64,000 nt of DNA from Sphingobacterium faecale (GTDB lineage Bacteria; Bacteroidota; Bacteroidia; Sphingobacteriales; Sphingobacteriaceae). The first letter of the stretch is position 1, and every line of letters begins with the position of its first letter. The stretch covers positions 1-64,000 of the forward strand of contig NZ_JAERTY010000015.1 of the NCBI RefSeq assembly GCF_016746095.1, given 5' to 3'. Position numbers and translations under genes: made by a program. Below, piece after piece: positions 3,696-23,075 of the stretch. The notes beneath the pieces are model-generated. The model was given only the letters and a program-made list of their open reading frames with translations. It was not told where the DNA came from and made no database searches.

Positions 3696-4415
3696 ATGAG
3701 TTTAGATAAGTTTATACAAGACGGACAAGACATTAAAGTTGTAGAAAAAATATATGGCAAGATTGCTGATATGCTGACACATGGAGAGACCATTAGTTAT
3801 ATTGCACTACAAAAAAAACCAGCAGTAACCCTGCTCCCCGACAGCATCACCATCAGCGACAAACGGATTTTTCTCTGTGAATTTACCAAATTAGGACTAG
3901 CGACCAATTTTGAGATTTTCTCTTGGAAAGACATCAAAGATATTGCTTTCAAGGAAGAGATATTTGGCTCTAAAGTTACTGTTATTCCATTTACCGGCGA
4001 AAATCTCAGTATAGATTATATTCCCAAAGTACAGGCCCGTAAGTTATACCAGCTCATAAAAGAAGCTTTAGAGCATGTCAAGATTGAGCAGGACGAACCC
4101 GTTGCTACCACTAAGATTATAGCGCCTGTACGTGACATCTATGGAGAGCCAAAGAAAGAAAGTCCAGCACCTGCCGCACCGGTGTTCGAGACTCCGGCAC
4201 AACCGATCGTCGAACCTCCTGTAGAATCAGTAGAAGAGACCAAAGTAAAGCCGACTCCTTTCTTTGGACAAGCAACCCCGTCTCCTGTTTCTATTCCTGC
4301 AGAGGACGACGAACTCACGCTAAAATTAAAGAAGTTAAAAGCACTATTTGACAAACAGTTGATTTCTCAGGCAGAATACGAAAATAAAAAAGCAGAAATC
4401 CTATCCCAGCTATAA
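3696..4415 (+). CDS. PH-like domain protein with C-terminal SHOCT helix pair
   Basis: A 239-aa cytoplasmic protein. Residues about 1-125 look like a bacterial PH-type domain (ITISDKRIFLCEF, SWKDIKDIAF and a long closing helix). A Pro/Glu-rich linker (about 145-200) follows, then a SHOCT domain (KLKKLKALFDKQLISQAEYE, last 35 residues), a short oligomerisation/anchor module often at the end of such proteins. Exact role unknown. It ends 9 nt before lnt and is probably co-transcribed with it, which hints at an envelope role, but that is inference. Confidence 0.75.
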   Translation: MSLDKFIQDGQDIKVVEKIYGKIADMLTHGETISYIALQKKPAVTLLPDSITISDKRIFLCEFTKLGLATNFEIFSWKDIKDIAFKEEIFGSKVTVIPFTGENLSIDYIPKVQARKLYQLIKEALEHVKIEQDEPVATTKIIAPVRDIYGEPKKESPAPAAPVFETPAQPIVEPPVESVEETKVKPTPFFGQATPSPVSIPAEDDELTLKLKKLKALFDKQLISQAEYENKKAEILSQL

Positions 4416-8356: not shown

Positions 8357-8473
8357 CACGTCATTTCGACCGTAGTGGAGAACCTCGAGGAGCTCAACGC
8401 AGTTAAATCTATGGATAGCTATAAATTTAACCCTTTTTATCTGTGAATTTCTCCACAGGGTCGAAATGACGTG
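8357..8473. repeat. Dispersed palindromic element (REP/MITE-like)
   Basis: Nearly perfect 25-bp outer arms, CACGTCATTTCGACC... at 8357 and its complement ending at 8473, enclose about 65 bp. The same arms, with GTCATCTCGACCGTAGCGGAGA variants, recur six times inside the guide array at 15.2-16.9 kb. Elements of this type are widespread between genes in Bacteroidota. The remaining part of the 8243-8636 gap holds only the candidate etfB promoter. Confidence 0.8.
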
Positions 8474-14258: not shown

Positions 14259-14747
14259 CTAGAACTCTGACTCTGATGGAGGCTTTAAATACTTTTTGTA
14301 ATTCCCCTCTTTGATATAGTCTAGGTCTCCTTCTTTGCAGTAGCCTGTCAGATAAACGGAGTACTTATTACTATCTGCTTTGTCGGCGTCAAGTTCCTTG
14401 ATCACATCGGAAACACGTCTAGGCGTTTCAAAAAAATCAGACTCATATACGAGATAGTCCAACTTTTGATTCTTTTCAACACGTTTTTGAGATTCTGGTG
14501 GCAAAGCAAAAAGCGGGGTTAATTCAATGTCGCTCTCGAAAAGATCCCGTGGCTGGATTTGTAGAGCGCGACAAATAAGCAAAAAGTTATTAAGCGTAGT
14601 GCCTCTACCTTTTTCCAATGACAACACAGTCACCGTTGTTACTCCTGTCATATCCGCTACATCGTTTTGCGAATAAGCGAGTGACTCTCTCCGTAACCGG
14701 ATTTTTTCACCTAGTTCTTTTAATACACTCTTATTTAGCACACTCAC
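14259..14747 (-). CDS. XRE-family transcriptional regulator
   Basis: 162 aa with GTG start. Residues about 10-68 form a helix-turn-helix of the XRE/Cro type (GEKIRLRRESLAYSQNDVA, VTTVTVLSLEKGRGTTLNNFL). The C-terminal 90 residues (ESDIELTPLF ... VSDVIKELD ... YLTGYCKEGDLDYI) are not recognised. Two perfect TTTGCGCAAA palindromes lie in its upstream region (14767-14776 and 14803-14812), likely its operators. It is divergent from the guide-RNA locus and may control both itself and that locus; this is inference from layout. Confidence 0.8.
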   Translation of the reverse strand: MSVLNKSVLKELGEKIRLRRESLAYSQNDVADMTGVTTVTVLSLEKGRGTTLNNFLLICRALQIQPRDLFESDIELTPLFALPPESQKRVEKNQKLDYLVYESDFFETPRRVSDVIKELDADKADSNKYSVYLTGYCKEGDLDYIKEGNYKKYLKPPSESEF

Positions 14748-14766
14748 AAAACAAATAGAAACAATA

Positions 14767-14812
14767 TTTGCGCAAACATTGAAAAATATATTTTTATTAT
14801 ATTTTGCGCAAA
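14767..14812. promoter_or_regulatory. Twin TTTGCGCAAA operators
   Basis: Two identical 10-bp perfect palindromes, centres 36 bp apart (14767-14776 and 14803-14812), in the intergenic region between the XRE gene and the divergent guide locus. The second overlaps the TTG (-33) of the rightward promoter. An XRE dimer bound there would block that promoter. Confidence 0.7.
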
Positions 14813-14833
14813 TGATGTTTATTTGTATCTTTG
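14804..14833 (+). promoter_or_regulatory. Promoter TTG-N19-TATCTTTG directed into the guide-RNA locus
   Basis: TTG at 14804-14806 and TATCTTTG at 14826-14833, 19-nt spacer. No convincing gene follows for over 2 kb on this strand; a 14-codon frame at 14864-14908 is the only small one. Transcription from here would run through the tracr-like module and the repeat array. Confidence 0.65.
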
Positions 14834-15088
14834 ATTAGAGATAACCAACACTTATATATAAACATGAGAGACACACTATATAAGAACATCGTTAAATCCC
14901 CTGTTTAATTAAAGCAGGAGAATTACAAAAGAGGTATTAATCAAAGCAACAGTATTAGCGCCCAATTTTATACAAAAACCAATTATTGCTTAAAATCCTC
15001 CATTATTTTAGTTCACGTCATTTATGCTTTTTAGCATGAAACAGGAACAATATTGCTCTTTGACATATTGGTATGGGTAAAAATATTT

Positions 15089-15145
15089 GAGGCTGCTTGT
15101 TCAGCCGTAGGGTGAGGGTGTATTGCTACTCACTAAGTACCCTTA
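15089..15145 (+). ncRNA. Cas12f tracrRNA-like module, copy A
   Basis: Contains a GGCTG-CTTGTT-CAGCC hairpin (15091-15106), then a GGTGAG...CTCACT hairpin (about 15111-15134) and an anti-repeat AAGTACCCT (15135-15143) able to pair with AGGGTA in the repeats. From memory, the first hairpin closely resembles the GGCUGCUUG...CAGCC stem of the Un1Cas12f1 tracrRNA. About 90 nt upstream also fold (ATGCT/AGCAT hairpin at about 15024-15037; CAATAT/ATATTG), possibly its 5' part. A TTGAC (15059-15063) with AATATTTG (15083-15090) could be a local promoter. Exact RNA ends are unknown. Confidence 0.7.
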
Positions 15146-15182
15146 ATATTATTTCTGTAGATGCTCACAGTTTGTACATCTT

Positions 15183-15212
15183 GACGTCATCTCGACCGTA
15201 GCGGAGAGATCT
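15183..15212. repeat. Palindromic-element arm inserted in array repeat 1
   Basis: Only the left arm (GACGTCATCTCGACCGTAGC...) is present. The repeat sequence CACAGTTTGTA occurs on both sides, as if duplicated on insertion. Confidence 0.65.
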
Positions 15213-15374
15213 AACAATATATTATCACAGTTTGTAGGGTAGGAACAACCACATTAAAGATAGAGTCCTGTATATGGCCCCCTGTAGATGCTCACAGCTT
15301 GTAGCGTAGGAACAACGGCGAAGTACTTCTTTGCCCGTTTCGGTCGCCTGCAGATGATCCAACTGGTCTCCCCA

Positions 15375-15494
15375 GACGTCACCCTGAGCGGATCCGCCAG
15401 TTGGCGGAGAAGTCGAATGGGGCTAACGACATAATAGTTACTCCTTGACAGTCCGTAGATCTCTCAATTCCGCTTCGCTCCAATCGAGATGACG
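15375..15494. repeat. Palindromic element inserted in array repeat 3
   Basis: Arms GACGTCA...GCGGA and TTCCGCTTCGCTCC...GATGACG; a second small palindrome (CCGCCAGTTGGCGG) lies inside. Repeat halves CAACTGG and CAATTGG flank it. Confidence 0.65.
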
Positions 15495-15657
15495 AAAGGA
15501 ACAAAGCAAATGCAATTGGTAGGGTAATAACAACTCACTCGTGAACGAAAGCGTCAATTCCCTTCTATAGATGCTCACAATTTGTAGGGTATACACAACA
15601 GAGTCTTCAGATTTCATGATTGAACCCACCTGTAGATAGTCACAATTTGCACATTTT

Positions 15658-15756
15658 GACGTCATCTTGACCGTAGCGGAGAAATCTAAAAAACTGGATT
15701 TCAATCTTTATAACTCATAGATCTCTCTATTCCGCTTCGCTCCAATCGAGATGACG
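15658..15756. repeat. Palindromic element inserted in array repeat 5
   Basis: Arms GACGTCATCTTGACCGTAGC and its partner ending ATCGAGATGACG. Repeat halves 15629-15648 and about 15777-15797 flank it, sharing ATTTG. Confidence 0.65.
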
Positions 15757-15845
15757 AAAGGAACAAAGCAAATGTTATTTGTAGGGGTATACACAACCGA
15801 GTCTCGTCAACGAAAACTAAGCTTTTAACAAACAGACACCTTAGT

Positions 15846-16145
15846 TTACCACTCCTTAACAACCTCCCAGAGGTCGTTCCATTGCGGATTAAGCTTATTT
15901 ATAAGAATCTCTTTCTTTGCTCGGTTCCATTTCTTGAGCTGTTTCTCTCTGTCGATGGCTTCTTCAATAGTAGAGAAGGATTCATAATAAACACAAAGAC
16001 AGGAATTATACTGACTCGTAAACGAATTGGCATACCGCTTCTCACGGTGCTCAACCAACCTAGTGTATAAATCAGAAGTCACTCCAATATAGAGCACCGT
16101 TCGGTTTACATTAGTTAGCATGTATATCACACCACCTCTTTCCAT
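15846..16145 (-). CDS. Small GIY-YIG family nuclease
   Basis: 99 aa, a stand-alone GIY-YIG domain: GVIYMLTNVNRTVLYIG at the N terminus gives the family signature, R29 and the EHREKRYANSF segment follow, and the catalytic-type Glu lies in EEAIDREKQLKKWNR. Such short members are often found with GTCATCTCGACC-type palindromes in Bacteroidota (my recollection). It sits on the opposite strand between two tracr-like/array modules, suggesting it arrived with, or helps spread, the palindromic element; it may alternatively have no link with the guides. Confidence 0.85.
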   Translation of the reverse strand: MERGGVIYMLTNVNRTVLYIGVTSDLYTRLVEHREKRYANSFTSQYNSCLCVYYESFSTIEEAIDREKQLKKWNRAKKEILINKLNPQWNDLWEVVKEW

Positions 16146-16176
16146 AGTATTAAGATACTAAATTAAACAACATACA

Positions 16177-16232
16177 CGAGGCTGCTTGTTCAGCCGTAGA
16201 GTGAGGGTGTATTGCCACTCACTAAGTACCCT
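16177..16232 (+). ncRNA. Cas12f tracrRNA-like module, copy B
   Basis: Nearly identical to copy A over about 55 nt: same GGCTG/CAGCC hairpin, an AGTGAG...CTCACT hairpin and the AAGTACCCT anti-repeat. One difference from copy A turns a G-T pair into an A-T pair in the second stem, consistent with selection on RNA structure. Identity begins at GAGGCTGC; the structured upstream part and TTGAC of copy A are missing, so it may be transcribed by read-through or be inactive. Confidence 0.6.
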
Positions 16233-16282
16233 ATATTGAAAACACACAGGGCACCCTGTAGGTAATCAAAATTTATTCCCAT

Positions 16283-16377
16283 CACGTCATTTCGATTGAA
16301 GCGCAGTGGAATAGAGAGATCTAACGCTAGAAGTATCCTGTAAAACTAATAGATCTCTCCACAAGGTCGAGATGACG
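16283..16377. repeat. Palindromic element inserted in array repeat 6
   Basis: Arms CACGTCATTTCGATTGAAGC and a partner ending GGTCGAGATGACG; flanked by repeat halves 16255-16275 and about 16398-16417. Confidence 0.65.
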
Positions 16378-16540
16378 AAAGGAACAAAGCAAATATTATT
16401 TGTAGGGTAGTAACAACCCGATTAAAGCTAAATTATTCCCCCGACCTGTAGTTGATCACAGTGTGTAGGGTATTAAAAACGGCTTCTACTGTAACCCTTT
16501 TGCTTTAATCATCTTAATGACAATTTATTTGTCTTGTCCC

Positions 16541-16658
16541 CGTCATCTCGATTGTAGCGCAGCGGAATAGAGAGATCTAACGAAATAACATTTAATACTA
16601 GACAGTCCATAGATATTCCGATACTCGGAACAGGCACTCGACTGCGCTCGGTATGACG
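16541..16658. repeat. Palindromic element inserted in array repeat 8
   Basis: Arms CGTCATCTCGATTGTAGCGC and a partner ending CGCTCGGTATGACG. Copies of CAATTT(G) occur on both sides in the split repeat. Confidence 0.6.
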
Positions 16659-16860
16659 AAATGAATAAGCAAATACAATTTGATAGGGTAGTAACAACTC
16701 TTTGTTTTACAATCAGTCAATCTGAACACCTGTAGATGCTCACAGTTTGTAGGGTATTAACAAAGTATAGGTAAATACATCTAAGCCTCGTCGCCTGTAA
16801 ATGACCAAAATTTGTAGGGCAATTATTAATTGCAAAAGTAGTTAACCCTACATAGTTCAT

Positions 16861-16887
16861 AGATCTCTCCACAAGGTCGAGATGACG
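16861..16887. repeat. Right arm of palindromic element near array end
   Basis: AGATCTCTCCACAAGGTCGA followed by GATGACG; the left arm is missing. A repeat-like 3' half ending GGGAAACAACAAC follows at 16901-16927. Confidence 0.55.
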
Positions 16888-17030
16888 GGGTGTACGAAGC
16901 ATTCACAATTCATTGGGAAACAACAACACAGACCTAGGAATTCACTAAGCCACTACAACTATTAGGATACTTACAACAGACGTCAGAAACTTTTATCTCC
17001 CATACCAATACGTCTAGCAAACAACACACA

Positions 17031-17089
17031 ACTGCGGTAGCCTTGGCAAAAAAGATAAAACCGGCAAAATCGCTAAGGTTATACGCAGT
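17031..17089. repeat. Imperfect inverted repeat upstream of the sigma gene
   Basis: ACTGCGGTAGCCTTGGC at 17031-17047 faces GC-TAAGG-TTATACGCAGT at 17072-17089, making a long imperfect stem ending 30 nt before the sigma-factor ATG. It could be an RNA structure, an operator or an attenuator. No TAnnTTTG box with good spacing is seen here; TTATTTTG at 17089-17096 is the nearest. Confidence 0.5.
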
Positions 17090-17119
17090 TATTTTGACAG
17101 CACGCTAAACAATTAAAAC

Positions 17120-17920
17120 ATGAAGCTATGCAACACACAGCTCCACCTCTCCTTGCTCAAGGAGGGTAAGGAAAAAGGTTTGGATTATTTTTACCAAAAG
17201 TACTTCGACACATTCTGCTATCGGGCCGAACGTGCCACCGAAGACTTATGTGCAGCAGAGAGTATTGTACAGGAGGCTTTCTTTCGTCTGTGGCTCTTCC
17301 GAGAGCAGATCAAAGACAGTGAAGCCGTATTTAACTTTCTAAAGAAACAGATCCGAGCGGCGATTGGTATATACTACACCAAAACTAGGAATAGATTTCA
17401 ACGTAGTCTATTACGTTTAGATAGTATTGAAGACTATCAGGAATTCATGTTGGGTTACGATATGGAAACTGAGGATGAAATAGATACAGTTTATTTAGAA
17501 CAACTGGAGGAGGAGAAACAAAGTCAGCTTGAAAAACTCAATAAACTACTCCCCTTCCTCTCCGAACAGCAACAGAATTTCATCAAATTATGTTTACGAT
17601 ACAGCTTTAATTATGAACGAATTGCCTACTACCTAGGTGGAATATCGGATTATGAAGTCAGTTTACAAGTAGAAAAAACAATTAATGCCCTACGTCAGAT
17701 ATTTCAAAGCCAGGACAAACTCAATATCCTCAACACCCCTAGCTCAATAAAGTTAGAAGGCGAATTTTCGGCAGAACAGGCCGAAGTCTTACGTATGCGC
17801 TATGAACTTCAGATGTCATTCGATGAGATCTCAGAATCACTCCAACTAAGTTCATCCCTCGTCAAAAAAATATTTATAGAAGCACGAGCTAAAGTTAAAT
17901 CCACTAAAAAGACAGCATAA
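17120..17920 (+). CDS. ECF-type RNA polymerase sigma factor paired with nuclease-dead Cas12f
   Basis: 266 aa, against about 190 for ordinary ECF sigmas. Residues about 11-95 are sigma region 2 (LDYFYQKYFDTFCYRAERAT, ESIVQEAFFRLWLFREQI). An acidic linker (110-135) precedes a sigma-4-like block (about 136-195, LNKLLPFLSEQQQNFIKLCL, YERIAYYLGG). A further C-terminal block (about 211-260, LEGEFSAEQAEVLRMRYELQ, SFDEISESLQLSSSLVKKIF) looks like a second sigma-4/HTH. It should recruit core RNA polymerase. The Cas12f-like gene begins 3 nt after its stop, so the two are translated as a pair. Promoter specificity may be supplied by the guide RNA rather than by region 4. Confidence 0.85.
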   Translation: MKLCNTQLHLSLLKEGKEKGLDYFYQKYFDTFCYRAERATEDLCAAESIVQEAFFRLWLFREQIKDSEAVFNFLKKQIRAAIGIYYTKTRNRFQRSLLRLDSIEDYQEFMLGYDMETEDEIDTVYLEQLEEEKQSQLEKLNKLLPFLSEQQQNFIKLCLRYSFNYERIAYYLGGISDYEVSLQVEKTINALRQIFQSQDKLNILNTPSSIKLEGEFSAEQAEVLRMRYELQMSFDEISESLQLSSSLVKKIFIEARAKVKSTKKTA

Positions 17921-17923
17921 ATC

Positions 17924-19018
17924 ATGGAAAAAGACACTATTGTACTCACCAGAAAAATACAGTTACATATTGATTCGGACGACAAGGAAAAACGAGCCGA
18001 ATATTACAAGACGCTATTCGAGTGGCAGGATGTCGTATTCCGCGGAGCTAATATGGTGATGTCTCACCAGTACATACAAGAGCAGATGAAAGACCTGATC
18101 TACTTACAGGATGACGTAAAAATCAAACTAGCCGACCGCAACAAGGATGAAGAAGGCATACTAAATACATCACGAATGAATACGACCTATAAAATATTGT
18201 CCCGTTATTTTAAGGGCAAGATCCACTCCGATATCCTGTCCTGTATCAACATGACGCTGATAAAAACCTTCAATACCGAAAGGCTAGACTATTGGAAAGG
18301 TACCAAGTCCCTACGTAACTACAAAAAGGATATGCCCATTCCTTTTTCCGGCAGCCAGATCAAACTCCATAAGGATGAAAATAACAGAGATTTTAGGTTC
18401 ACACTTTTCAAAATTCCTTTCCGAACGTACCTTGGCAAAGACCGATCGGACAAACGAGTATTATTACAGCGCGCACTCGTAGGGCAGATCAAGATCTGCG
18501 GAAGCTCTATCAAGATCGTAAAAGGTAAGATTTTCTTACTAATCGCTCTGGAAATGCCTAAAAAGCAACAGGAACTAAAAGATCATATTATTGCCGAGGC
18601 CTCATTAGCTGTTGAGCATCCCATCACGGTACAGATTGAAAAAGAGAATTTTCAAATCGGGAATAAAGAAGAGTTTCTCTACCGTCGTATCGCAATACAA
18701 TCGGCCAGACATCGTATCCAACGGGCTGCAACGTTCTCCAGAGGCGGCCACGGACGTAAGAAGAAACTAAAAAGTCTAGATCAATACAACGAAAAGGAGA
18801 AAAAATACGTAGACAACAAACTTCACCTCTACAGCCGTAGATTGATAGACATCTGTATCAAGGCGCAAGCAGGCACTCTCCTGCTCGTCAACCAAAGTCT
18901 AAAGGAAGAAGTCGCTAAAGAAGACGAATTCCTCCTCCGAAATTGGTCTTACTATGGGCTTATCGAAAAAATAAAATATAAAGCTGATATAGCAGGAATA
19001 CAAGTTATTACGGAATAA
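17924..19018 (+). CDS. Nuclease-dead Cas12f/TnpB-family RNA-guided protein
   Basis: 364 aa. The C-terminal half is clearly Cas12f/TnpB: SSIKIVKGKIFLLIALEMP (about 194-212), GRKKKLKSLDQYNEKEKKYV and HLYSRRLIDICIKAQAGTLL (277-320), and the type V-F hallmark LLRNWSYYGLIEKIKYKADI (337-356). The RuvC-I GIDLG site is replaced by EASLAVEHP (Asp position is S227), and the RuvC-II Glu position by VNQSL (N323). The protein stops at GIQVITE, just where the Cys4 zinc finger and RuvC-III Asp normally follow. So it should bind guide RNA and DNA but not cleave. It is the partner of the sigma factor upstream; the guide array lies 5' of both. TnpB-derived repressors (TldR) are the main alternative class. Confidence 0.88.
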   Translation: MEKDTIVLTRKIQLHIDSDDKEKRAEYYKTLFEWQDVVFRGANMVMSHQYIQEQMKDLIYLQDDVKIKLADRNKDEEGILNTSRMNTTYKILSRYFKGKIHSDILSCINMTLIKTFNTERLDYWKGTKSLRNYKKDMPIPFSGSQIKLHKDENNRDFRFTLFKIPFRTYLGKDRSDKRVLLQRALVGQIKICGSSIKIVKGKIFLLIALEMPKKQQELKDHIIAEASLAVEHPITVQIEKENFQIGNKEEFLYRRIAIQSARHRIQRAATFSRGGHGRKKKLKSLDQYNEKEKKYVDNKLHLYSRRLIDICIKAQAGTLLLVNQSLKEEVAKEDEFLLRNWSYYGLIEKIKYKADIAGIQVITE

Positions 19019-21571: not shown

Positions 21572-22927
21572 TTAGTCTACTTTGCTTATAAACCAATCGA
21601 TATATTCTGGCAACTTTGTTCCCAAATAATACGGAAGGTTCAGTAATTTATAAGGCTTTCCATTTGGTGTAACGGTATCCTCAACTCTTAGGTCTCCTCC
21701 ATATATCCGAACTGCGAAATGATGATCCACTCTTTCCAAAAATTGATGAAGAGACTTCAATGAACCTGTAGCACCAGACTTTACTTCAATAGGTATTACC
21801 AACCCCTTGGCAACAAGAAGAGCGTCAACCTCTGCACTGGACTGAGCCTTATCCCTAACCCAAAAGTGAGGCATTGATGTTGAGGAAAACTGTATAGAGA
21901 TCAGCTCTTGTACAATCAAATGAGGAACTAATGCCCCTTTATATGCAGGACTCAAATCTTTCATCGCAAGCATATCAGACTGAATACCTGCCGCATAATT
22001 AATGAGTCCTGTATCTAAGAACTGTAATCTAGGCGACTTCTTAATATCGCTCCGAATCGGAGGAGTCACATCAGTAGTAGGATAAATCAACCTTATAATT
22101 TTAGCATTATCTAAGGTCCGGAATGACTCTCCAATTTCCCGTGAACGGTAGTTTGAATTACCAAAACCCTGAAATTTAACACGTTCATCTAAATACAAAG
22201 GAGCTGTATCCATAATGTGTTTAATAATCTTACGTTCCGTATCATTAGAAGCGTATTTCTCCACATCGTTTTTATATGTCCCCCAAATACTCTCGTATTT
22301 AGAAATAAGGTCAGATAGATTAGATGTTACCAAATCCGCTTTAACAATCTCTGGCATTCCTCCTATGATTGCAAATCTGTGAAATTCATCCATTAAAATC
22401 TGATGAGCAACTTTAGAAACAGGAATTTTATTCAGGTATCCGGCAAGATTAGTCTTACTATTGGCTTCTAGATACTCTTGAAAATTCAAAGGATGCAAAT
22501 ACAAAAACTCAACCCTACCGACTGGAAAACTAGGAATCTCCTGCATAGCAAATTCGAGAAGAGAACCTGCACTAATAACATGTAGTTCTGACATCTCTTC
22601 ATAGAAGTAGCGTAATAATTGAATTGCAGCAGGACTCTCTTGAATCTCGTCTATAAAGAGAATGGTATCTGAAATGTCCTTCGAAGGAACTTCGTGAACA
22701 AGAAAGAGAGCTTCAACAATGTCTTGTACATTATCAAAGTTTTCAAAATATCGTCGATCTGCGGGCTTTTCTAAATTAAGAATAATACGATGCTTGTATT
22801 TCTTTGAAAAATCACGTATTAAAGTCGTTTTACCAACCTGCCTTGCTCCTCGTAAAATCAAAGGCTTTCGATCTACACGACCTCTCCAATTATCCAAAAA
22901 CCCCTGAATAGCTCTCTTGAATTCCAT
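21572..22927 (-). CDS. AAA-type ATPase with DUF4143 domain
   Basis: 451 aa. Walker A GARQVGKTT (about residues 27-35), Walker B ILFIDEIQE, an arginine-rich sensor region, then a C-terminal DUF4143 domain (ending near PIEVKSGATGSLKSL, which resembles a PD-(D/E)xK-like E-V-K signature). Proteins of this kind are abundant in Bacteroidota with no settled function; several are suspected of mobile-element or defence roles. The ATG at 22927 starts EFKRAIQGFLDNW, the usual family N terminus; a TATATTTG -7 box lies 33 nt upstream (22960-22967, minus strand). Confidence 0.85.
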   Translation of the reverse strand: MEFKRAIQGFLDNWRGRVDRKPLILRGARQVGKTTLIRDFSKKYKHRIILNLEKPADRRYFENFDNVQDIVEALFLVHEVPSKDISDTILFIDEIQESPAAIQLLRYFYEEMSELHVISAGSLLEFAMQEIPSFPVGRVEFLYLHPLNFQEYLEANSKTNLAGYLNKIPVSKVAHQILMDEFHRFAIIGGMPEIVKADLVTSNLSDLISKYESIWGTYKNDVEKYASNDTERKIIKHIMDTAPLYLDERVKFQGFGNSNYRSREIGESFRTLDNAKIIRLIYPTTDVTPPIRSDIKKSPRLQFLDTGLINYAAGIQSDMLAMKDLSPAYKGALVPHLIVQELISIQFSSTSMPHFWVRDKAQSSAEVDALLVAKGLVIPIEVKSGATGSLKSLHQFLERVDHHFAVRIYGGDLRVEDTVTPNGKPYKLLNLPYYLGTKLPEYIDWFISKVD

Positions 22928-22942
22928 AACAAAAGTTAAAAA

Positions 22943-23075
22943 TGTAACAAAAGCAAACCCAAATATACACACTTATTGTCACAAAATAAACCCAGTTTTA
23001 TCCAATATCTGTAATAAAATAAAGCCAGTATCAACAAACTATTGTAACAAAGTAAGGCCAAATTAAAAAACAAGA
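22943..23075. repeat. Four degenerate 33-34-bp tandem repeats upstream of the ATPase
   Basis: TGTAACAAAA, TGTCACAAAATAAACCCAGT, TGTAATAAAATAAAGCCAGT and TGTAACAAAGTAAGGCCAAA begin at 22943, 22977, 23010 and 23043, a period of 34, 33 and 33 bp (about three helical turns). They overlap the ATPase promoter region and extend upstream; an iterated binding site is plausible. Confidence 0.55.

Follow-up and report, generated by a model that had tools for sequence, protein, structure and literature searches.

Two guide-RNA scaffold modules, each heading a degenerate half-array, at a dCas12f–sigma factor locus of Sphingobacterium faecale

The window analysed here, a stretch of 64,000 nucleotides (nt) from Sphingobacterium faecale (contig NZ_JAERTY010000015.1, positions 1 to 64,000), contains a locus in which two guide-RNA scaffold modules, each followed by a degenerate array of repeats and guides, precede the genes for a sigma factor and for a homolog of the clustered regularly interspaced short palindromic repeats (CRISPR) effector Cas12f. 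An earlier note, made from the letters of the DNA, had described the modules as two copies of a Cas12f-type trans-activating CRISPR RNA (tracrRNA). Module A lies at 15089–15145 and module B at 16178–16234, half-array 1 at 15154–15828 and half-array 2 at 16260–16957, all on the + strand. The effector is encoded at 17924–19018 (+). Its open reading frame (ORF) matched the PDB chain 9n9c_A, 'Nuclease-deactivated Cas12f', over residues 1–362 of 364 (E = 8.1e-123) and, more weakly, the Cas12f of 9nzo (E = 4.8e-42); the PADLOC Cas12f was matched as well (E = 4.5e-59). In the alignment with 9nzo, Ser and Asn stand opposite the RuvC-I Asp and the RuvC-II Glu, which we take to be catalytic residues of Cas12f, and the protein stops before RuvC-III. 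Judged from this alignment, the catalytic RuvC residues are lost and the effector is nuclease-dead (dCas12f). The Cas12f-type effector implied by the earlier note was thus found as a homolog, but both the residue alignment and the matches to structure entries place it with a nuclease-dead, sigma-linked type. The cognate sigma factor, of the extracytoplasmic function (ECF) type, is encoded at 17120–17920 (+); its sole PDB match at E ≤ 0.1 was chain 9n9q_C, 'RpoE' (E = 2.6e-37), and Sigma70_r4 and TIGR02937 (sigma70-ECF) were also matched.

Among 149 genomes from 54 genera, 53 had a dCas12f match and all of these belonged to one genus; in G024 and G026 the copies were partial or broken only. The nearest named relative of the protein was that of S. 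paucimobilis HER1398, with 99% identity, and nearly all named relatives were from Sphingobacterium, the exception being one contig of a metagenome-assembled genome that is titled Neobacillus. Fifty-eight of the 62 dCas12f places, the window included, were examined as loci with their flanks; the other four were G081:C83, G081:C211, G057:1174390 and G039:5307840. A sigma match was present within 3 kb in 51 of the 58 loci.

Both modules showed the GGCTG/CAGCC hairpin, the second hairpin and the AAGTACCCT anti-repeat that had been pointed out in the earlier note. They scored 71.9 (A) and 71.5 bits (B) with R1, a covariance model whose alignment includes both copies and shows covariation, and they are spanned by the direct repeat D6 (15080–15143 and 16169–16232; 64 nt, 91% identity). 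When copy A was used as a query against its own genome, modules A and B were the sole places at E ≤ 0.001, and neither this search nor the covariance model of the family revealed a third copy there. No Rfam family reached its gathering score in the window. The folding of the lone copies was unexceptional (z = −0.56 for A and −1.88 for B), so the case for structure depends on comparison. Lone copy A favoured an alternative fold in which AGGGU is base-paired to the anti-repeat of that copy, and lone copy B retained the family fold. Folding together with the repeats, as had been proposed, brought both copies into the family fold with each of three well-pairing repeats. The predicted anti-repeat duplex was −10.0 to −15.7 kcal/mol for three of the four repeats tested, and −3.2 and −5.8 kcal/mol for the fourth, which reads TAGCGTA; the value of −10.6 kcal/mol for copy A with one repeat was equalled by 7 of 200 shuffled repeats. 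Where a scaffold adjoins a repeat, a single-guide-like fold is possible, with z = −4.7 in L095, −2.8 in the first unit of L071 and −1.5 in L102. The G-to-A difference between A and B, said to be compensating, falls in column 24, whose partner is column 48, and it does turn a G-U pair of the stem into an A-U pair. Among 105 module copies, however, this pair is GU in 84, GC in 11 and AU in 10, which is one-sided variation rather than a double compensatory change.

Those 105 distinct module copies made up the alignment from which the structure was assessed and R1 was built, a covariance model of both copies and orthologous loci having been proposed as a check. In the two-hairpin structure 93.5% of the cells pair, compared to 84.7% in shuffles, and changes on both sides occurred at 8 pairs. 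The covariation score was 0.295, compared to 0.147 when shuffled (0 of 500 as high) and at most 0.117 with slid partners, and the strongest signal came from the inner part of helix 2, where GC, CG and AU types occur. At E < 1e-5 the model gave 121 matches in 56 of the 58 loci. Since it was built from the 105 copies, matches at those places are by construction; those outside its own alignment include L092, L103 and L104. No module match was obtained with R1 in L112 and L113, where dCas12f is broken or partial. Over the 149 genomes, a match at E < 1e-10 was found in 51, a set identical to that of the genomes with a near-full-length dCas12f, and weak matches alone were found in four more (G050, G052, G060 and G090). 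A locus that had kept the protein pair and lost the module, which would have spoken against the earlier note, was looked for and not found, as each of the 51 loci in which a sigma gene lies no more than 3 kb away has the module. The anti-repeat also follows the repeats of its own locus, with a mean stack of 5.98 compared to 5.08 when loci were permuted (0 of 2000) and 1.6 with shuffled repeats; 40 of 53 loci were usable for this comparison, 13 having no usable repeat, and it takes no account of kinship among species. The covariation, the co-variation with the repeats and the co-occurrence with the dCas12f gene support the tracrRNA identity; at the level of sequence comparison the modules behave as structured scaffold or tracr RNAs, and their RNA family is conserved across Sphingobacterium.

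As had been noted, each module heads its own half-array, with degenerate repeats and guides of about 30 nt following both A and B. The guides start directly after the repeat end ...ACAAC, a register backed by matches starting from the first guide nucleotide for g4 and for one guide of another genome, G067 (29 of 29). In half-array 1 the repeats are about 36 nt long (families D1–D8) and the guides are g1 (15250–15280), g2 (15317–15347), g3 (15535–15564), g4 (15600–15629) and g5 (15798–15828). Half-array 2 holds g6 (16418–16445), g7 (16481–16510), g8 (16699–16728) and g9 (16765–16794), followed by two uncertain guides, g10 (about 16831–16860) and g11 (about 16928–16957). Guides g6–g9 are common to this locus and its closest relative, L059; three genomes have an identical g1 and four an identical g7, and some guides are conserved across genomes over all 24 nt compared. 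At least two modules were found in 38 of the 58 loci, with a maximum of six in L071, where the dCas12f reading is interrupted by two in-frame stops. The idea of a tandem duplication of tracr plus array fits the scaffolds. The guides, on the other hand, differ between the half-arrays, so any duplication of the unit must have been followed by guide turnover, and since close relatives have kept both the A-type and the B-type flanks, the duplication predates the strain and is neither recent nor specific to it.

Inverted elements resembling repetitive extragenic palindromic (REP) sequences, with the core TCGAGATGACG, lie in or beside the array repeats at 15185, 15484, 15746, 16285, 16367, 16541 and 16877, and two more cores occur in the window at 8359 and 8461. 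The core is related to a REP-like element found in 3 of 40 upstream regions of SusC-type genes, and, judged by eye, such an element seems to lie in frame in the leader coding regions of some SusC-type operons. Between the two units, on the − strand, lies an ORF for a GIY-YIG endonuclease-like protein (15846–16145; PF01541, E = 9.6e-17), which was seen in the five closest loci only and is possibly mobile.

The guides were compared with the host genomes; the whole-genome match lists ran to E = 10 and were inspected in part. For g4, 26 of 30 nt matched a site in its own genome 565 nt upstream of a TonB-receptor gene (E = 5.7e-4), and the corresponding site in the genomes G009 and G083 matched at 27 of 30 (E = 2.4e-5); no Rfam family was found at the g4 target loci at E ≤ 0.5. 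For g1, 15 nt matched exactly; the site lies 212 nt before a gene whose AhpC-TSA match was sub-threshold and which a SusC-type receptor gene follows, and it is also present in the sister genome G009, before another SusC-type receptor. For g7, 15 of the first 16 nt matched; a redoxin-like gene lies 696 nt downstream of the site, with a SusC-like gene after it. For a test, 116,621 bases were taken from upstream of 40 SusC-like genes, those with the best scores among 172 matches. There g1, g4 and g7 scored 15, 20 and 14, all in the sense orientation, and a score of at least 14 was obtained by 1 of 1650 shuffled guides. The remaining eight guides scored at most 11, the test string of g6 carrying two repeat letters. 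We accept, from these matches, that three of the 11 guides correspond to sense-oriented sites upstream of the organism's own SusC/TonB-receptor genes, and the system is probably aimed at nutrient-uptake genes.

Other matches were not accepted as targets. Those of g9, g2 and g5 lay inside coding genes, did not begin at guide position 1 or were at chance level. A partial match of g2 over 27 nt in G009, near a SusC-like gene, lies beyond the 3′ end of an intervening helix-turn-helix (HTH) gene, at a genome whose locus is without g2. Guide g6 gave a near miss, with positions 3–17 matching exactly in the sense orientation about 25 nt before a start codon in its own genome (G000; E = 0.63); by eye the gene that follows resembles an amidohydrolase, and the corresponding place matches in G053, whose array is without g6. 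For g3 and g10 the whole-genome search gave no match from the 5′ end of the guide.

The g1 site and its flanks are near-identical in G000 (L245:3278) and G009 (near 4121 on the reverse strand of L246), but the receptor genes downstream share only 34% identity, and the HTH-like genes that lie opposite them across the site look different in the two genomes. Receptor genes may have been exchanged here while the upstream region with the g1 site stayed conserved.

A boxA-like antitermination element, GCTCTTTGACATATTGG, assigned from the position of the motif across loci, lies before unit 1 at 15055–15071 (+). A motif like GYTCTTTGACNTATTGG precedes the first module by 27–420 nt in 40 of 56 loci, among them 34 of the 38 that have several modules, and it was never found in the 500 nt before a later module (0 of 64). 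In two of the 16 loci without the element, L073 and L108, the first module lies within 300 nt of a contig end. The pattern was composed after the upstream sequences had been viewed; on the opposite strand it gave 5 matches in 738 kb. Three ribosomal RNA (rRNA) loci were scanned, in the own genome (L385), G067 and G047, and a close form of the motif stands in each between the 16S and 23S rRNA genes, which is a boxA position. The presence of the element solely before unit 1 argues, if not decisively, for one antiterminated precursor of all units, and these positions suggest that one long precursor RNA covers them all. PMC7862264 describes boxA upstream of CRISPR arrays.

Alternatively, each scaffold may be transcribed from a promoter of its own, as a small RNA gene in its own right, which would give two separately controlled guide sets. 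Copies A and B differ in their upstream sequences, each of which is common to close relatives, and copy B adjoins the divergent start of the GIY-YIG gene. In other clades the sequence directly before later modules is also conserved, as TTTTCAAAATTATATAT (L067 type) and TTAAACAACAAC (L077/L078 type) illustrate; these sequences could be promoters, which counts against a single precursor. Independent genes are nevertheless rather unlikely in our estimation, since the boxA-like element occurs once per locus and before the first module only (40 of 56 loci, compared to 0 of 64 later modules), and since on the + strand a single weak terminator-like site (15922–15941) lies between the units. The module upstream regions, moreover, share no motif except A+T richness. 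A scan of 14700–17200 for sigma-70-type promoters gave 7 matches, compared to 6.8 in shuffles, and thus no excess; one of the two best (10 of 12), at 15060–15087, lies immediately 5′ of copy A and overlaps the boxA-like element. Terminator-like sites numbered 4 where 1.7 were expected. A Bacteroidetes-type promoter was considered upstream of copy A and dropped because transcription would start inside the first hairpin.

The reading that we consider likely is that of a dCas12f–sigma guide-RNA system with an antiterminated precursor that drives transcription at SusC/TonB-receptor genes. From the covarying structure, its co-variation with the repeats, the co-occurrence with dCas12f, the loss of catalytic residues, the sigma linkage, the position of the boxA-like element and the guide matches, we infer a course of transcription, processing, loading, recruitment and activation. 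A single RNA under boxA antitermination would carry both scaffolds and both half-arrays, and pairing of the scaffold anti-repeat with the 3′ part of the repeats would yield guide RNAs whose guides are about 30 nt long. So loaded, dCas12f would bind, but not cut, at sites before the genes for SusC/TonB-dependent receptors and would bring in the linked sigma factor and RNA polymerase, so that transcription would start downstream. The extra scaffolds may keep dosage and cis pairing high along the long degenerate array.

Several observations weigh against this reading. Eight of the 11 guides have no accepted target (g11 having been compared with the SusC-upstream regions and the window), and in the whole-genome search the E values of g1 and g7 were about 2 and about 4. 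The SusC test set was chosen after that search had found g1, g4 and g7; as these guides were first seen genome-wide, the test gauges specificity and is not an unbiased hit rate. A 15-nt exact match of g8, rejected as a target, lies inside a coding gene, so a match of 15 nt alone can be chance. The g4 site is retained in G009 and G083, whose dCas12f loci are without g4, and the receptors downstream of the g1 site in G009 and in the own genome are only 34% identical. The target-adjacent motif of dCas12f–sigma systems, which we take to be 5′-G, was absent at the three target sites, where the preceding base is A (g1), T (g4) and A (g7), and is A before the g4 site in G009 and G083; homologous systems may use different motifs, and the sample is only three sites. 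A guide of the L106 array in G067 matches its own genome at 29 of 29 nt in antisense over the start codon (G067:C1:4748631-4748659) of a gene that by eye resembles a response regulator; this does not look like activation. Finally, five loci with dCas12f and the module have no sigma gene within 3 kb (L093, L094, L095, L097 and L099). A sigma factor of 47–48% identity was found elsewhere in two of the genomes concerned (G080 and G048), weak sigma matches only in G028 and G030, and none at E ≤ 0.001 in G043.

The antisense match and the loci without a linked sigma gene would also fit guide RNAs that serve mainly for repression, with dCas12f acting as a roadblock at promoters or start codons in the manner of the TnpB-derived TldR repressors and the sigma factor being secondary. 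We regard this as improbable, given that a sigma gene lies within 3 kb in 51 of the 58 loci, that the three sites in the own genome lie hundreds of nucleotides upstream of genes (212, 565 and 696 nt) in the sense orientation, and that the PDB entry holding the closest solved relative of the sigma factor belongs to one series with that of dCas12f. A degenerate type V-F CRISPR-Cas immune locus, working or recently dead, with a duplicated tracr–array unit, would account for the Cas12f profile match and for repeats of about 36 nt with spacers of about 30 nt, but is very hard to credit when the RuvC-I and RuvC-II residues are replaced and RuvC-III is absent, when no Cas1 or Cas2 was found among the 13 proteins, counting the pair, that were scanned with Pfam or NCBIfam between 8.6 and 24.4 kb (a scan that left out a few ORFs of this region and the genome beyond it), and when there are guides that match the chromosome of the organism itself and guides that other genomes have conserved, and the scaffold covaries.

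Activation at receptor genes by dCas12f and its sigma factor can be extended to a broader picture, which we put forward tentatively and do not favour outright. The antiterminated multi-unit RNA would be a heritable, reprogrammable list of a regulon, directing dCas12f–sigma to many TonB-receptor operons; scaffolds would multiply with the array, guides would turn over from species to species without an adaptation module, and in lineages that lost the sigma factor the RNA and its protein would have become a repressor.

Divergent from the array lies an Xre-type HTH gene (14259–14747, −; PF01381), a possible regulator of the locus. Homologs were present upstream of the first module in 35 of the 58 loci, also where the sigma gene is missing, and this is perhaps a conserved third gene that acts as a switch or autoregulator. 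The g4 target gene is likewise flanked by a divergent HTH_3 gene. Further along the window, the protein encoded at 21575–22972 (−) matched the PADLOC candidate defence family PDC-S01 (E = 3.1e-187).

If the preferred reading is true, the locus is a natural multiplex gene-activation array, in which one RNA gene sets the switchable nutrient-uptake operons of an environmental bacterium. It offers native targets that can be tested and a covariance model for the scaffold, and the placing of several scaffold copies after a single boxA is a design idea for long guide arrays. The loci with the module and dCas12f and no cognate sigma factor allow the study of a shift from activation to another use.

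RNA-guided transcription by dCas12f–sigmaE was reportedly described in 2025 by the Sternberg and Chang groups; dCas12f–sigma is a known type of system and is not a nuclease CRISPR system. Like those systems (PDB 9n9c, 9n9m, 9n9o and 9n9q), the present locus has a nuclease-dead Cas12f with an adjacent sigma factor and a guide RNA with a repeat-derived part, and some guides match upstream of the organism's own genes. Unlike them, it has several scaffold–array units behind one boxA-like leader and a heavily degenerate array with REP-like insertions; some relatives are without a linked sigma factor, and the 5′-G motif was not seen at the three sites. With type V-F CRISPR-Cas12f (9nzo, and 8hr5, which is listed as 'Transposase') it shares the homology of the effector, the anti-repeat scaffold and the repeat–spacer array, but here the catalytic residues are lost, no adaptation genes were found among the scanned neighbours and some guides match the own chromosome. 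TldR proteins are nuclease-dead, TnpB-derived, RNA-guided transcription factors. They are named in the abstract of PMC13418256, and they too are exapted nuclease-dead effectors of the RuvC family that control genes through an RNA guide, whereas the protein here is closest to Cas12f, takes its guides from an array and mostly has a dedicated sigma factor beside it. Nothing on dCas12f–sigma systems appears in the passages of PMC13186708 and PMC13418256 that were searched, and among titles and the openings of abstracts no description of loci with tandem or multiple tracrRNAs was apparent, which does not prove their absence in print. Three features may be new, namely the tandem units behind one boxA-like element, the SusC targets in this genus and the loci without a sigma factor. 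The arrangement also resembles the boxA-led CRISPR arrays of Stringer et al. 2020, as cited in PMC7862264, in which boxA lies upstream of a long repeat–spacer array; here, unlike there, the array would serve a predicted transcription system and carries several scaffold copies inside it.
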